A stretch of 64,000 bases of DNA from Candidatus Nitrososphaera evergladensis SR1. GTDB lineage: Archaea; Thermoproteota; Nitrososphaeria; Nitrososphaerales; Nitrososphaeraceae. Both the position numbers and the translations under genes were made by a program. Under the pieces are notes generated by a model. The model was not told the DNA's origin. It saw only the letters and a list, made by a program, of their open reading frames with translations, and ran no database searches. The stretch spans positions 1,860,001 through 1,924,000 of the forward strand of contig NZ_CP007174.1 of assembly GCF_000730285.1 (NCBI RefSeq). The letters are read 5' to 3'. Numbering within the stretch: the first letter of the stretch is position 1; every line of letters begins with the position of its first letter. Positions 51,332-60,879 of the stretch are shown here, in pieces.

Positions 51332-51718
51332 TTACGGACCCATATTTCTTTTTATGAGATCCAAGAACTGGGCCAGGTTAAATGGCTTTGTTATTATTTC
51401 GCTGACTCTTAATTGGCTTTTGGCAGAATCTATCTCTTCCTTGGAAGGATCAAATGCCGACATTACAACGATATTTACTGCCGAGTTAAGCTGCCTGATG
51501 CCGTGAATAAAATCAAGACCGGACATTTGCGGCATGCGAAAGTCCGAGATTATCAGGTCGTATTTTGTAGGGTTAGTCTGGAACCACTCGAGAGCTTTTT
51601 TTGGATTTGTAAATGAATCCACGATTATGTTTAACTCTTGGAGCATCTGCTCGATGACCGTCAGGATGTCCTTCTCGTCGTCAACTATCAAAATACTCTT
51701 GGTGCCTGATTGCTCCAT
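51332..51718 (-). CDS. Stand-alone response-regulator receiver protein
   Basis: 128 residues of a CheY-like receiver: acidic D13-D14, phospho-acceptor D59 in YDLIISDFRMPQMSG, S87 (VVMSAFD) and K111 in ITKPFN. There is no output domain. It lies 132 nt downstream of the large histidine kinase (same strand), so it is the likely partner. The ATG at 51718 is nearly leaderless (TATA-like GTATAATC near 51739-51746, reverse). Confidence 0.9.
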   Translation of the reverse strand: MEQSGTKSILIVDDEKDILTVIEQMLQELNIIVDSFTNPKKALEWFQTNPTKYDLIISDFRMPQMSGLDFIHGIRQLNSAVNIVVMSAFDPSKEEIDSAKSQLRVSEIITKPFNLAQFLDLIKRNMGP

Positions 51719-51850: not shown

Positions 51851-54484
51851 CTATGGTTTGTGTATGGGCAAAGTAAAGGCAAAAGTCGCTCCTTTTTCAT
51901 CATTAGAGCTGTTGTTGTTCTCCGCCCATATCCTTCCACCGTGAGCTTCGACGATGTTTTTTGCAATGAAAAGGCCAAGGCCCGTGCCTCCCCTTTCCCT
52001 GTCGGCTGAAAACTTGGTAAACAGCCTTGGAAGCACCTCTGCGCTTATCCCTGCTCCGCAGTCTTTGACTGATATAACAACTGCCATGCCATCATCATCG
52101 TCGCTATCCTTTCTGTCCGTCATAATTGTAATGACATCGCCTTCGGCTGAAAACTTGATTGCGTTTCTAATCAGATTAGAAATGACTTCAAACATTCGCA
52201 GTTTGTCGGCCTTGACAAGCAGCGGGATAGGATTTCCTGATTCATCCGATAATGGCTTGAATTGTATGTCTATGCTTTGACCTTGAGGAATCCAACTTTT
52301 GGCATCTGCAATCATGTTTTTCATCTTCTCATTGATGTCCATCACTTCCATATCCATCCTGAGCGTGCCTGCTTCAATCCTCGTGGCGTCCAGGATTTCA
52401 GAAGACAGCTTTTGAAGCCGCCTGGCGTTTCTGTCCATTATTGCCAGCTGCGTGGTTGTAAGTTCTACGTTGGCCGCATTGCCATTGGCAAATCTGCCTT
52501 TTAGCAGCTCGATTACTGCCAGAATTGGCTGGACAGGCGTCCTTAGTTCGTGCGCGGCAATGTTGATAAACTCGCGCTGCAACCTGTCTGATTCCTGCAA
52601 TTTTGCAACAAGGCGAGTTTCGAGCCAGAGGCTCTCAAATATCCTGGCATAAGAAAGGACGATGGATCTGCTGGTTGAAAAAACAGACGTTCCAACGGCA
52701 TCAGCAAAGCTTTCTTTCTCGTCATCTTTTAGCTCAATAACCAGCGATGTCCTATTGTCAATGATTACAACAGTCATTCTTGGAGCGCCTTCTTCTATTG
52801 CTTTTTGCGCGGGCTTGATTGAAAGATCGTTAACCAGGATGCCTTGCGATTCCAAGTCAATAATATCTTGCTTGTTCGCATCTTCTTTGGCGTAAACCAA
52901 CACCCTTACTCTTGTGCCTTTTTTTGATGACGCTTCTTTTAATGAACCGATTATCCCTATTCTTTTATCCCTTGCAAACGCGTTGGCTGTTGGCAGGATT
53001 AGCATGATTTCGTGACTGGCTTCGTTTACAATGGCCTTGTAGACGCGCTCTGTCTGGTACTGACTGGATATTACTTCAGTCTCTTCGTTGATCCCGGCTT
53101 CAATGTCTTGGATCCTTTTTCTGGCATCGGCTCCGCTTTTCCACAATTCTTCAAACACGGATTTGAAATGCTGGACATACAATGGCTCCGTGCTGGTCAA
53201 CAAGGTTTGAACCATCTTTCCGCCATCCATCGTCTCGATTGTGGCGTTGTACATTTTGTCGCTGACTGCAAAGTACATTGACGGCATGTTTTTCACGTGT
53301 CTTATTTCCATGCCAATGTCAAGAAATGTCTTGACAATGTCAATGCTGTCTTTATCGATAAACATAGCCCACCTGATGCCTTTATGCTTGTCGTTGGCCT
53401 TCTTTGCCATCAGCTTTTTGTAGATGCCAAAAAACTGGTTGTGGACGAGATGCAGTGCGCCAGTATTTGCGGCAACCATTACTTCGCCAGAGTTATCATG
53501 CAGCGCGATGATTCTGCCGCGGATATCCTCGAGATCCTTCAGGACTTTGGTTTCTACAGGAAATAATATTCCTTCTTCAATTTCCCTGATTCTCTGCTCC
53601 GCAGGAATCGCCTTTTTCCAAAAGCTGTCAAAGATGTATTGCTGCTGCTCCACCATTTCCTTTGAGTTGCTATACATCAACGCTGGCACGGGCTGGGCCT
53701 CGATTACAGTGGTGGCCGAGATATACTCTGTTTCGCTGACTCCGAAATTGCCGTAAAATCCGTCCACATGGCGCACTTGCGCATATTCCATCAGCTTTTT
53801 GCAATAAGGGAGATTGTCACGGGTTATCTCTGTTACCCATCTTGTCTTGACGCCTCTCTTTTTCATGTTCTCATAGGCATCCTTGAATACTGAGATAGCA
53901 ATAGACGGCGCGGTTGAATTCGCGCAGGCGTCCATCCTTTCACGGCAATTGAGAAAAAAATGCATCACCCTTTCTGTCGTATCTTTTGCCTCGCGCAGCA
54001 CTTCAGTCTTGGTAGCTGGTATATTTTCTTCCAGTTCTCTTATCTTCTGCTCCGCGGGAATTGCGTTGCTCCAAAATATGTCAAAAATATTCTGTTGCTG
54101 CTCCACCAGCTCCGGCATGTTGCTATAGACAACTACATCAAATGGTTCTGAAGCCAGGCTTTGCTTGAAAGCTCCGGCATATTCGGACTCGCTGACTGCA
54201 AAGCTTCCAGTTATCCCCGCTAAATGTCGAAGCTCTGCGACTTCCATTACTTTTTTGCAGCGTTCAAGATTTTCTTTTGTTATCTCTGTAAGATACCTTA
54301 TCTTGACCCCTCTTGCCTTGCCATCAAGATAGCCTTTTCGAAGTTTGTCGCTGGCGGAAAGTGTGGGTATTGTCTTATCCGCACAAACGCACCACGTTTT
54401 CTTGGCATTTGATTGAAACCGTCGTATGGCCTTGATCGTATTTTCGACACCATAGAACACTTCGGTCTTGACATCAGGCTCCAA
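51851..54484 (-). CDS. Soluble histidine kinase with TrmB-like sensor repeats
   Basis: 877 residues, no transmembrane segment. Four tandem sensor units (about 1-150, 155-305, 310-465 and 470-625): the first two share ETSEY-like SFAVSESEY (94-102) and NFGVSETEY (246-254), linked by VEQQQ-IFD-FW-AIPAEQ-I; the third has MYFAVSDKMY (403-412). Then a HisKA domain with phospho-acceptor H645 (AAHELRTPVQPI), N-box NLIRNAIKFS, G1 DCGAGIS and G2 GTGLGL. The repeats resemble the TrmB-type sensor domain. Starts TTG 54484; likely signals to the receiver at 51332. Confidence 0.85.
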   Translation of the reverse strand: MEPDVKTEVFYGVENTIKAIRRFQSNAKKTWCVCADKTIPTLSASDKLRKGYLDGKARGVKIRYLTEITKENLERCKKVMEVAELRHLAGITGSFAVSESEYAGAFKQSLASEPFDVVVYSNMPELVEQQQNIFDIFWSNAIPAEQKIRELEENIPATKTEVLREAKDTTERVMHFFLNCRERMDACANSTAPSIAISVFKDAYENMKKRGVKTRWVTEITRDNLPYCKKLMEYAQVRHVDGFYGNFGVSETEYISATTVIEAQPVPALMYSNSKEMVEQQQYIFDSFWKKAIPAEQRIREIEEGILFPVETKVLKDLEDIRGRIIALHDNSGEVMVAANTGALHLVHNQFFGIYKKLMAKKANDKHKGIRWAMFIDKDSIDIVKTFLDIGMEIRHVKNMPSMYFAVSDKMYNATIETMDGGKMVQTLLTSTEPLYVQHFKSVFEELWKSGADARKRIQDIEAGINEETEVISSQYQTERVYKAIVNEASHEIMLILPTANAFARDKRIGIIGSLKEASSKKGTRVRVLVYAKEDANKQDIIDLESQGILVNDLSIKPAQKAIEEGAPRMTVVIIDNRTSLVIELKDDEKESFADAVGTSVFSTSRSIVLSYARIFESLWLETRLVAKLQESDRLQREFINIAAHELRTPVQPILAVIELLKGRFANGNAANVELTTTQLAIMDRNARRLQKLSSEILDATRIEAGTLRMDMEVMDINEKMKNMIADAKSWIPQGQSIDIQFKPLSDESGNPIPLLVKADKLRMFEVISNLIRNAIKFSAEGDVITIMTDRKDSDDDDGMAVVISVKDCGAGISAEVLPRLFTKFSADRERGGTGLGLFIAKNIVEAHGGRIWAENNNSSNDEKGATFAFTLPIHKP

Positions 54485-55800: not shown

Positions 55801-56478
55801 CTAGCCCAATTCAACCACCGTGTCAGAGATCGATGGAACCATCCTCTTTACAGAGAGGAGCGCACCGGTGGGCACGATTACTTCGGTATTGACGGTGTCC
55901 AGCGAAGTCGGCCGGTCGCTATTTTTGAACATCATGAGCACCACGGCGTTCTCACCGATGTCAAGGATGGAATTGTTGTTCTTGTTGACGGTAAAGTAGA
56001 CTATGGCAGATGTCTCGTTCAGGCCGTTCCCAGCCCACGGAAGCTGGTTTATCATGCCGGCGTTTTTGGCTGCCACGATGGCTGCCGTGCTGTTGGAGTA
56101 TGTGCCGTTTGTGAGTATTCCCCTGTAGGTGCTCTCAAAGACGAGGTTCTTGCTGTAGTACCTTATGGCGGTGTTGCCTGTCTCGACGTTTACAGACTGT
56201 CCGCCTGGCGAGACCTTTATGGGCACGGCGTAGTAGGTGAGCCTGTTCTGCGTAACGTTTCCGTGGCCCGTCACTCCGCCCGTGATTTCCATTGCGCTGC
56301 TTGCCTCGTCCAGTCCTGACGCAATCGTAGTCTTTGCCTTTTGCGTGGTTGAGAAACCCATGTTCAAGATGACAAACGAGAGAGCTGCTGCCACCATGAC
56401 AAAGGCGATCAGCACTATTGCGGATTCAATGCCGATCACGCCACGCCTGAGCTTTTGCCTTTGTTTTGACTTCTTCAT
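55801..56478 (-). CDS. Archaellin (flagellin) subunit
   Basis: 225 residues. The class III signal peptide ends RRG, cut before VIGIESAIVLIAFVMVAAAL, the conserved archaellin N-terminal helix; the rest is a Thr/Asn/Ser-rich globular part, with NGT/NST sequons usable for N-glycosylation. It forms the archaellum filament after processing by FlaK/PibD. ATG 56478 follows TATA-like GCTTAATTC (reverse, about 56503-56511), i.e. nearly leaderless. No other arl genes are in the window, but chemotaxis genes follow. Confidence 0.92.
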   Translation of the reverse strand: MKKSKQRQKLRRGVIGIESAIVLIAFVMVAAALSFVILNMGFSTTQKAKTTIASGLDEASSAMEITGGVTGHGNVTQNRLTYYAVPIKVSPGGQSVNVETGNTAIRYYSKNLVFESTYRGILTNGTYSNSTAAIVAAKNAGMINQLPWAGNGLNETSAIVYFTVNKNNNSILDIGENAVVLMMFKNSDRPTSLDTVNTEVIVPTGALLSVKRMVPSISDTVVELG

Positions 56479-56671: not shown

Positions 56672-58360
56672 GTGTCGCTTGAAAATGTTACCAAAAGATT
56701 TGTAGATCTTGGACTCTCTGAAGAAGAGGCTGCGGTCCTAAGAGACCTGTACCTGGCAGGAGAATCCAAGGCAGGAGACCTTGCAAGGTCGTCTGGGCTT
56801 GCCAGGATAAAGGTATACAGGATACTTGACAGGCTGCAAGAAATGAGCATAGTAGAGTCCACCATGGGCAGACCGGTCATTTTTTCTGCCATTCCTCCGG
56901 ACAGCGCAATTGAAAGGCTGATAGAGCATGCGGCAAGGAAGCTAGAGACGATGCAGGTCGCACGTGAGGAGGTCATGAAGGAGCTTGCCCGGTTCAAGCT
57001 GCAGGCAAGGCCGCAGATTGAGGCCAAGTACAGGATAATCCAGGGCAAGCAGCAGATCTATCCGTGGATAGCCAAGATGGCCGCCTCTGCCGGCACGGAA
57101 ATCCTAGCATATATCGAGCGGGAGGATCTGAGAAAGATCTACTACACGGACGTTCTTGAGGAGCTTTCAAAGGCAAGAAAGAGGGGAGTAAAGGTCAGGA
57201 TACTGACAGACGTAGACTACTCGCTTGCAGCGACTGTCAAGGACTACGCTGGATATGCAGACATCAGACACACCAGGATTCCCGGAATGAGCATCCTGCT
57301 CGTCATTGACGAATCAGAGCTTGTGGTGTCGGCCACGACGAGGGCAGAAGGGGCGTCAGACGTGGCCCTGTGGATGAACGGCAAGAATTTTGTGGCAGGA
57401 ATAAAAGGACTCTTGGGCGAAAGCTGGGAAAACGCCATCAGCGCCCAGACAAGGATAAACATCATGAAGGAAGGGGGCAAGGCCCTCCAGGACATCCTCA
57501 TAGTCAGGGGCACGCAGTCGATAGGCGAGTTCTACAAGGGTATGCTTTCAAGGGCCAAAAAGAAGGTGTTGCACGTCTCTGTTCCGTACGATACCGAGTT
57601 TTTTGGACCCCTTGCAAGCGATGCGCTTGCGTGGGCGGGCAGAAAGGTGGACATGCAGGTCCTGACTGCAATCGACAACTCATCCCTTGGCGACGTAAAA
57701 GACCTTGGCGGCAACAAGTGCAAGGTCCGGCACATAGACGCAAAGGCAGGGGTCAACATCACAATCGTCGACGGAGAGGAAGTCATGCTTACGCCGGCGG
57801 CCGGAGGAGCGAAGAGCCGCAGCCAGAGCGCGATATGGTCAAACGTGCGCGACTATGTCGAGCATTACAGGATAATGTTTGACAACCTCTGGTCTTCTTC
57901 ATCAACTGAAATGGCTGACAGGATAGCGCTTGTGGAGGCACAGGCAAAGGCCGAAGAGATGGCATTGCAAATGCGCCGGACGCTTGAAAGCGCGGGCTTT
58001 AAGATTCAAAAGGCGATAAAAGGCACAAGCGGCCTTGTGCACGAGTTTTCCATCGTGGCTGCTGCAGGAGAGCACGACGCGGCCGCTGCTGCCGTCGTAG
58101 TCGACATAGCCGGTATTGAAAAGCCCGACCTGCAGACGGCAGTGATAGGATTTGTCGTCAAGTGCATGGACATAAAGGCAGACCACAAACTCCTAGTCAC
58201 GCTTTTTGACCCTGCACAGGTGCAGGCGCCAGCAAGGTCCCTCAACAGCGATATCACGATTGCAAGTGCACAAGACGCCGAAAAGACGCTCAGAAAGATG
58301 CTGGGAATGAAGCAGCAGCCTAAACAACAGCAGATTACCACGACAGCATTAATTGATTAA
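56672..58360 (+). CDS. TrmB-type regulator with two sensor repeats and extra C-terminal domain
   Basis: 562 residues, GTG start. N-terminal winged HTH (LGLSEEEAAVLRDLYLAGES, LARIKVYRILDRLQEM), then two sensor units (about 115-260 and 270-420; the second with VLHVSVPYDTEFFGPLA and KCKVRHIDAKAGVNITIVDG), and a C-terminal part (about 440-545, GFKIQKAIKGTSGLVHEFSI, AAVVVDIAGIEKPDLQ) not found in simple TrmB. It lies between the archaellin gene (divergent) and the chemoreceptor gene, so control of motility is suggested, not shown. Confidence 0.8.
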   Translation: MSLENVTKRFVDLGLSEEEAAVLRDLYLAGESKAGDLARSSGLARIKVYRILDRLQEMSIVESTMGRPVIFSAIPPDSAIERLIEHAARKLETMQVAREEVMKELARFKLQARPQIEAKYRIIQGKQQIYPWIAKMAASAGTEILAYIEREDLRKIYYTDVLEELSKARKRGVKVRILTDVDYSLAATVKDYAGYADIRHTRIPGMSILLVIDESELVVSATTRAEGASDVALWMNGKNFVAGIKGLLGESWENAISAQTRINIMKEGGKALQDILIVRGTQSIGEFYKGMLSRAKKKVLHVSVPYDTEFFGPLASDALAWAGRKVDMQVLTAIDNSSLGDVKDLGGNKCKVRHIDAKAGVNITIVDGEEVMLTPAAGGAKSRSQSAIWSNVRDYVEHYRIMFDNLWSSSSTEMADRIALVEAQAKAEEMALQMRRTLESAGFKIQKAIKGTSGLVHEFSIVAAAGEHDAAAAAVVVDIAGIEKPDLQTAVIGFVVKCMDIKADHKLLVTLFDPAQVQAPARSLNSDITIASAQDAEKTLRKMLGMKQQPKQQQITTTALID

Positions 58361-58599: not shown

Positions 58600-60879
58600 A
58601 TGAAGAATCCTCTTTCTCACAGCCTGAACGGGCGTCTGATCTCCCTCTTTGTAGCAATGTCCGTAGTTCCGCTAGTGGCAATCGCCATGCTCAGCTTCAA
58701 CGCCGCCCAGGGAGCACTGAGTAACAAGATAAGCAACGAGCTGCATTCGCTTGCGGTAAGCAGGGCAGAGGCAGTGGAAATCCTGAACGAAATGCGCGTA
58801 CAGCAAGCGTCAACCTTTGCCGCAGGAGAAAAGGTACAAGACCTGTTCCAGCTCTACAATGCCAAAGAAGCAGGGACTGGCGTTGACGAATCGCAACTGA
58901 AAGAGGCATCGAACACCCTTCTTGGCGAATTTTCCGAGTTCAAGGAAGCGACAGGAGGAAACGACGGATTCTACAAGATAAAGATGGTTTCAATGAAGGG
59001 CACGGTATTCTTTTCCTCCGACAGTTCAGAGGTAGGAAAGAACCTTGCGCAGGATGCGACCTTCCAAAAGGCAAAGCAGCAGCCGGTGTCGTTTGTAGAG
59101 TACGACGCAGACAAGAAGGAGGGCGCCCGCACGGTACTGGTCCCGGTGACCGCACACGGCGGACAGGACGTAATAGGCGTGGTGTACACCAGCGTGCCAA
59201 CCCACGTTGCATCGCAAATTCTTCTGAACAGGGAGGGTCTTGGCGAAACTGGCGAGACGTACCTCGTAAACAGCGAGGGCCTGATGATATCAGAGTCAAG
59301 GTTCGTCCAGGGGGCCGCATTTAACCAGAGGGTCAACACCCTGCCAGTCACGGAGTGCTTTGAGAAAGGCACAACTGTAAACGGCATCTACCCAGACTAT
59401 AGGGGAATACCAGTCTATGGCGCCTCGGCTTGCGTAAAGGAAGCAGGCATGGTGCTGCTTGCAGAGTATGATGTCGCAGAGATCAACGCGCCAATCACGC
59501 AGCTACAGAACCAGTACCTCCTGCTTGGAGGGCCTATAATGGGAGCAGTAGGCGTCGCGGCGTTTTTCATTTCGCGGTCGATTTCAAGGCCAATAGCCGT
59601 CATCAGCAAGGCGGCGCAGCGTGTAAGCGAGGGCAACCTGACCGTAAAGATGGGCGAAATAAGGTCCAAGGACGAGATCGGCGTGCTTTCCAAGTCGTTT
59701 ACCGACATGGTCGCAAGCATACGCGAACTTGTGAGGCAGGCCCAGGACAATTCAATCACCATCTCATCCACTGCAGAGCAGATGGCCGCGTCGACCGAGG
59801 AAGTGAACGCATCCATCAACCAGGTATCAACTAGCGTACAGCAGATCGCAAAGGGAACGCAGGACCAGGCCAAGAGGCTTGAAGAGAACAACAGGATCGC
59901 AGAAGATCTAAGGACTACCATGAAAGGCGTGTCCAGGTCAGCAGAAGAAGTCGCAGGGCAGGCCATGCAGACAGGCAAGACGGCGCAGGCAGGCCAAACG
60001 GCCGCTTCTGACGCGGCACAGAGGATGACAAAGATACACGACTTTGTCAGCAAGGCAGTATCAGACATCAAGGGAATAAGCGAAAAGTCTGCCCAGATTG
60101 CATCTGCCCTTGGCGTCATCAACACCATCTCTGACAAGACCAACCTTCTTGCCCTAAACGCCGCCATAGAGGCTGCCAGGGCAGGAGAGGCGGGCAAGGG
60201 CTTTGCCGTCGTGGCAGACGAGGTAAAGCGCTTGGCCGAAGGGTCGCTCAAGGCATCTGAAGAGATAGCCAAGCTGGTAGACGAAATCAAGACGACCATC
60301 GAGGCGTCGGTGCAGAACATCGAGTCCGGCTCCAAGGAAGTGTACGAGGGAACAGACATCATAAACAGGGCCCTCTCGTCCCTTGAGGCCATATCCACGG
60401 AGGCGCTGCAGACTGCCAAGAGGGTTCAGGAAATAGCGTCGAGCACCCAGAACCAGGTCAGGGCGGCTGAAAACGTCACCAAGCTGACCGCAGAGGTGGC
60501 ATCAGTTGCCGAAGAAACCGCAGCCTCGGCAGAAGAGGTTTCAGCGGCGACAGAGCAGCAGACGGCCAGCATGCAAGAAGTCACAAACGCGGCGCAAGAG
60601 CTTGCCAAGATAGCCGAAAAGTCGCAGGGTCTGATAACCAAGTTCAAGACCGACCACGCGGATGACGAGCAGCAAGAAAAAGAAGAAAAAAAAGCAACCG
60701 CCTCTTCCGTCCCTGCTGCCTCTGCTGCTGAAGAAACAGCCAAGTCAGGAGGACGCAAGCCGCTCAAGCTAAAGGCTCCTTTTGTAGTAAAGAAGGAGGG
60801 CCAGAAGCCCATGCTTGGCCAGATCAAAGTATTACATGGAAGGGGAGGAGATAAGGAAGAAGAAGAAGCAGTGAACTAG
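58600..60879 (+). CDS. Methyl-accepting chemotaxis protein, dCache type
   Basis: 759 residues: TM1 at about 10-35, an extracellular Cache-type sensor (about 36-300), TM2 at about 303-326, HAMP ([20 protein letters not shown]), and a long coiled-coil signalling domain with hairpin tip [20 protein letters not shown] near 507-530. The tail is Lys/Glu rich. It senses small molecules outside and controls CheA through CheW (downstream). GGAGG lies about 15 nt before the ATG; the upstream 239 bp (58361-58599) hold no other gene. Confidence 0.95.

Follow-up and report, generated by a model that had tools for sequence, protein, structure and literature searches.

The locus

The window (the whole stretch of DNA analysed, 64,000 nucleotides, G000:C1:1860001-1924000) belongs to a genome that consists of a single contig of 2,954,373 bases. 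On its minus strand, at 51851-54484, it encodes a histidine kinase of 877 residues in which four repeat units, of types A-A-B-C, precede a HisKA and a HATPase_c domain. The reading frame runs from 54484 to 51851 and opens with a TTG codon, which is a plausible start since the frame is closed three codons 5' of it and the first unit already begins at residue 7. The HisKA dimerisation and phospho-acceptor domain (residues 636-706; 52367-52579, minus strand) matches Pfam PF00512 with an E-value of 8.5e-11, and the HATPase_c catalytic domain (residues 760-874; 51863-52207, minus strand) matches PF02518 with 1.7e-26. The kinase motifs are all intact: H645 within HELRTP, the N-box at 770, DCGAGI at 808 and GGTGLGL at 832. 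Judged by this sequence (phospho-acceptor histidine, N and G boxes), the protein is a HisKA-type sensor histidine kinase. A Kyte-Doolittle scan (19-residue window, maximum 1.37) found no transmembrane segment, in agreement with the sequence-only reading of this locus, which had described a soluble kinase.

That reading had also pointed to a receiver just downstream, and there is indeed a stand-alone CheY-like receiver gene at 51332-51718, beginning 132 bp past the kinase stop on the same (minus) strand; its product matches PF00072 (E 2.1e-24) and has the DD, D and K residues of the acidic pocket. From gene adjacency, this receiver is the likely phosphorelay partner of the kinase. When related kinases with at least 1 kb of flank were counted (n=60), 26 had a receiver gene no farther than 1.5 kb away, in many cases immediately downstream and in the same orientation, and 34 had none within that distance (some of these flanks are short).

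Other genes of note lie nearby. An archaellin/pilin-like protein is encoded at 55801-56478 of the window and an MCP with dCache and HAMP at 58600-60879; between them, on the plus strand (56672-58360), lies a TrmB-like regulator that combines an HTH with two units like those of the kinase (PF01978, PF11495, unit HMM), whose membership of the same pathway is putative.

Four related units and their position classes

Residues 1-632 of the kinase, in which a Pfam scan gave no model above cut-off, hold four units of about 145 residues, all on the minus strand: unit 1 (residues 7-151; 54032-54466), unit 2 (160-302; 53579-54007), unit 3 (312-461; 53102-53551) and unit 4 (469-631; 52592-53080). The suggestion that these are related sensor units is borne out. 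Self-alignment gives 46% identity between units 1 and 2 (E 4e-45) and 27% between units 2 and 3 (E 2e-12), falling to a weak match between units 3 and 4 (E 0.003); one unit HMM, whose training set included these very units, covers all four with i-E values of 7e-44, 9e-47, 2e-32 and 6e-21. In hhalign, single units of this kinase match units of another kinase class or of HTH proteins with probabilities of 58-100%, the negative controls (reversed profiles, receivers) staying at or below 2.1%. Unit 4 reaches 100% against the profile of kinase-proximal units (a set that includes unit 4 itself), 84% against that of TrmB-like units (reversed or receiver controls at most 1.5%) and 29% against that of distal units. 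Across the family the kinase units are 145-160 residues long, and successive units are separated by exactly 8 residues in 113 of the 134 pairs.

Units 3 and 4 had been regarded as drifted copies. This view has to be given up, as both belong to conserved classes defined by position. In a tree of 333 units, with nearest neighbours taken from other loci, the nearest neighbour of a kinase-proximal unit is again kinase-proximal in 101 of 107 cases and comes from a kinase-less protein in the remaining 6; it is never a distal or penultimate unit (0/107). One clade of 113 tips (support 0.94) unites 100 kinase-proximal units with 13 from kinase-less proteins, to the exclusion of any other kinase unit. 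Unit 4 falls in this kinase-proximal class (type C) and carries its signature ELKDD..YSNS, unit 3 belongs to the penultimate class (type B), its nearest relatives being penultimate units elsewhere, and units 1 and 2 are of type A. Each class has its conserved motifs (TEIT, RH and YSN, with ELKDD in type C).

Unit 1 can be identified as the addition, because residues 156-877 align end to end, at about 41-44%, with ordinary three-unit kinases. Since its closest relatives in the tree are stand-alone single-unit proteins (L093 and L016), the tree hints at an origin by fusion and not by copying of unit 2. One of these, L016:1348-1950 (G000:C1:883131-883583), comes from the same genome and seems to recur in several members of the genus. 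Its frame has an inner stop and we considered a pseudogene, but inspection (which, among such inner-stop single-unit frames, covered L016) found that the reading ends exactly at the unit end, so that a stand-alone unit is more likely.

The fold of the units

AF2 models unit 1, taken alone, with a pLDDT of 90.5 and a pTM of 0.84; units 2-4 were scored within a multi-unit model, where they have a pLDDT of about 90 (the pTM of this model is 0.37, and the relative orientation of its units is of low confidence). Unit 1 had been poorly modelled in a first run, probably because three-unit homologues give no alignment depth there. When the unit 1 model is compared with known structures by Foldseek, TrmBL2 (PDB 5bpd) comes first with an E-value of 1e-9 at about 20% identity, followed by NucT/Nuc (Nuc 2.5e-7) and, third, by the TrmB sugar-binding-domain structure 2f5t (1.1e-6, 141 of 233 residues, TM 0.68); the DUF1669 domain of FAM83B is also among the matches. 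With units 1-4 submitted jointly, two-domain PLD proteins and TrmBL2 were ranked, the PLD enzymes aligning over two units.

Sequence profiles point the same way for part of the set. A type A profile built from kinase units only, compared with all PDB sequences, matches PLD6 (mitochondrial cardiolipin hydrolase, Zucchini) with an E-value of 1e-5, in an alignment that passes through the catalytic hairpin; the corresponding type C profile gave chance matches only. PLDc_2 and PF11495 match weakly in the unit sets; among Pfam families, PLDc_2 is the one that single units hit most frequently (in 15 of 24 type C units), and by sequence the type C units resemble canonical TrmB weakly (PF11495, best E 0.003). 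On the basis of the PLD6 profile match, the AF2 models and the Foldseek ranking, we conclude that each unit is, as modelled, the PLD-like core of a TrmB effector domain.

The earlier proposal of TrmB-like sensors therefore stands in part. The best fold match is TrmBL2, with TrmB 2f5t also recovered, and HTH proteins share the units; TrmB (PDB 2f5t/3qph; PF01978 plus PF11495) and the kinase have in common the PLD-like half of the effector domain. However, TrmB has in addition an HTH and a C-terminal sugar-binding part (G320/E326), and the kinase has neither: there is no PF01978 match in the 877 residues, and the sugar-binding part of about 70 residues is absent from the units, each being followed after about 8 residues by its neighbour. 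In this respect the units resemble TrmBL2, a Thermococcales member of the TrmB family which, like TrmBL3, is without the roughly 70 C-terminal residues that hold the sugar-binding domain (PMC4158304, a TrmB review). TrmBL2 itself combines an HTH with a single unit and binds DNA, whereas the kinase has no HTH, four tandem units and a kinase output. It had also been asked whether the units might align better with a PLD-like domain having no relation to TrmB. The units are indeed PLD-like, but so is the TrmB effector core, which is also their nearest structural counterpart.

The units share their fold with PLD enzymes (Nuc 1byr, PLD6/Zucchini 4ggj) and differ from them in having lost the catalytic HxK residues, so they appear to be catalytically dead. 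The motif HxKx4[DE] is absent from all units of this kinase and was found in 3 of the 333 units of the whole set.

A probable signal helix of fixed register

In the AF2 model, the C-terminal helix of unit 4 (residues 606-631) reaches the start of HisKA. From the conserved tryptophan of this unit, W620, to the phospho-acceptor H645 there are 25 residues (52550-52627, minus strand), and this number turns out to be one of a series: in related kinases the distance from the last unit's conserved tryptophan to the histidine is 25, 32, 39 or 46 residues, or 186 where a PAS domain is inserted. The distance is 4 mod 7 in 108 of 109 non-redundant kinases (less than 80% identity), that is, in 87 of the 88 available earlier and in all 21 of an out-of-sample set (40 further regions fixed beforehand from the family search, which left 21 new kinases after removal of near-duplicates). 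The sole exception, L081, has a spacing of 78 residues and a long linker of another kind. The distances from the histidine to the N-box, taken as a control, occupy all seven classes modulo 7. By Fitch reconstruction on the kinase tree, the spacing changed length some 31 times, a rough figure given that the FastTree topology is weakly supported.

Insertions in the linker are thus tolerated almost only as whole heptads, a pattern diagnostic of parallel coiled coils held in one phase; the 4 mod 7 spacing therefore argues for a dimeric coiled-coil signal helix, and it is probably by such a helix, its register fixed, that the units drive the kinase. Experiments on the LOV kinase YF1 have established that its linker between sensor and DHp depends on heptads (PMC6798134). 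Soluble multi-sensor HisKA kinases with coiled-coil linkers (YF1 type) have, as here, tandem input modules and a heptad-phased helix leading to the DHp, but their sensors are of PAS/GAF fold and those of the 877-residue kinase are pseudo-PLD.

Distribution

The architecture is not singular: there are many related kinases with one to five units. A query with units 1-2 finds at least one match in 65 of 70 genomes of the host's own family, with up to 32 matches per genome. The host genome itself has six unit-bearing kinases (with 4, 3, 3, 3, 2 and 2 units), as well as one protein with two units and no kinase, and one unit that stands alone. Among the 109 non-redundant kinases, 16 have one unit, 23 two, 63 three, 5 four and 2 five. 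Four units are therefore not unique to this protein: L068, L084 and L088 also have four (L084 aligns with the 877-residue kinase over its full length), and L185 and L191 have five.

In a sample of 398 genomes of the phylum, the strongest matches with the kinase architecture come from the family of the host and, in small number, from genomes of a second family of the same order. GTDB species genomes, scanned with one peptide pattern (not exhaustive), yielded MAGs of Nitrososphaeraceae type together with a few whose label is Nitrosopumilus or Nitrosopumilales. In these searches, then, the kinase family is restricted to this archaeal lineage, and it is rare in the sister family.

The units themselves are also found with HTH domains. 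The kinase sensor directly matches the HTH protein of the window at 56672-58360 (E 8.6e-11), a protein of about 560 residues with two pseudo-PLD units, an additional C-terminal domain and relatives across the phylum. Two-unit proteins of this size in other families of the phylum match the sensor with E-values of 1e-6 to 1e-12, and those in the loci examined are organised as HTH-unit-unit. In the host genome, HTH proteins carry one unit in L031 (267 residues) and L034, and two in L029 (the protein of the window) and L032. These thaumarchaeal proteins thus draw on the same unit family with an HTH in place of the kinase, but their units group apart from those of the kinases in the nearest-neighbour test.

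Interpretation

We consider it probable, with good though not full confidence, that the protein is a cytoplasmic member of a lineage-specific kinase family, in which one to five dead PLD-fold modules of the TrmBL2/TrmB-core kind are regularly spaced before HisKA/HATPase, and that it signals as follows. The kinase would act as a parallel dimer, and a putative ligand or protein would bind one or several units at their degenerate catalytic groove. The type C unit would transmit the resulting change along its C-terminal helix by twisting the coiled coil, switching autophosphorylation at H645, from which the phosphate would move to the receiver at 51332. Unit 1, a type A module added to a standard A-B-C kinase, would likely provide an extra input.

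The most serious alternative, which we regard as possible but doubtful, is that the units are modules for docking to proteins or nucleic acids, so that the array sets the location or the partner of the kinase and does not sense small molecules. Some PLD-like proteins serve as scaffolds, and TrmBL2 is itself a chromatin protein; the closest fold match being TrmBL2, with the FAM83B domain also matched, this idea has some appeal, all the more so as unit number varies freely and stand-alone and kinase-less unit proteins exist as possible partners. On the other hand, the strictly heptad-phased spacing from the last unit to the histidine argues that the conformation of the units, and not location alone, is read by the kinase, and the strongly conserved motifs of each class (TEIT, RH, YSN) suggest a conserved site.

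That the units are TrmB-type sugar sensors, with the kinase reporting sugars, is improbable: PF11495 does match a single unit among the kinases of the genome (E 0.0095) as well as the HTH paralogues, but its matches stay within roughly the first 136 positions of the effector model (233 residues), with no room for the part carrying the sugar-binding residues G320/E326 (marked absent in TrmBL2/TrmBL3; PMC4158304), and TrmBL2, which also lacks that part, is a better match than TrmB. Least credible of all is signalling by turnover through units that are still active PLD-type phosphodiesterases, for in spite of the PLD fold and of two-domain PLD enzymes aligning across two units, HxKx4[DE] is missing in 330 of 333 units, including all those considered here, and the positions opposite the PLD6 HHK are of K/G/N type.

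Returning to the pseudo-PLD kinase with a phased helix, we lean, by a modest degree, towards viewing the family as a previously undescribed class of sensor kinases, with tandem modules in position-specific roles and many copies per genome of soil ammonia-oxidising archaea, in which a TrmB-type module has been rewired from DNA binding to phosphorelay via a strictly heptad-phased helix. We found no description of histidine kinases whose sensor domains are PLD- or TrmB-like in the open-access PMC literature (most subscription journals lay outside this search), and the available part of the 2018 census of archaeal two-component systems (PMC5847659) names PAS, GAF, MEDS, PocR, CACHE and HisKA_7TM sensors but none of PLD or TrmB type. 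The unit-bearing kinases are apparently undescribed so far. Two-component genes are far more numerous in soil ammonia-oxidising archaea than in their marine counterparts (PMC4084955); one large sensor family of the soil organisms can now be named together with its fold, and a dead enzyme fold common to transcription regulators is seen to serve as a kinase input. The rule of seven residues amounts to a directly testable signalling mechanism, for which the family offers natural linker variants (+7, +14 and +21 residues) and arrays of one to five units that could be used in engineering.

Further unit-bearing loci

A few other loci deserve mention. In the region of L138:3396-4945, a unit-bearing kinase has a tyrosine in place of the phospho-acceptor histidine (AAYELR) and is likely a pseudokinase. 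Fusions of a class III nucleotide cyclase with a receiver are encoded beside unit kinases in L046, L045, L176, L111, L166 and L104, which suggests that second messengers are among the outputs of some family members. A match in a MAG labelled as candidate division TM6 bacterium (L155, LDIY01000023.1) raised the question of transfer to bacteria, but we do not retain this idea, as the contig reads archaeal (it looks thaumarchaeal, with a unit protein, a KaiC-like protein and a cupredoxin) and is probably misbinned. Finally, kinase-less two-unit proteins are recurrently clustered with a ParA/MinD-like ATPase (L155:3-3383, L157, L175, L043 and L132), most of these clusters adding a KaiC-like protein with a cyclase-like end, and in L111, L117 and L130 the ATPase is found near a unit kinase.
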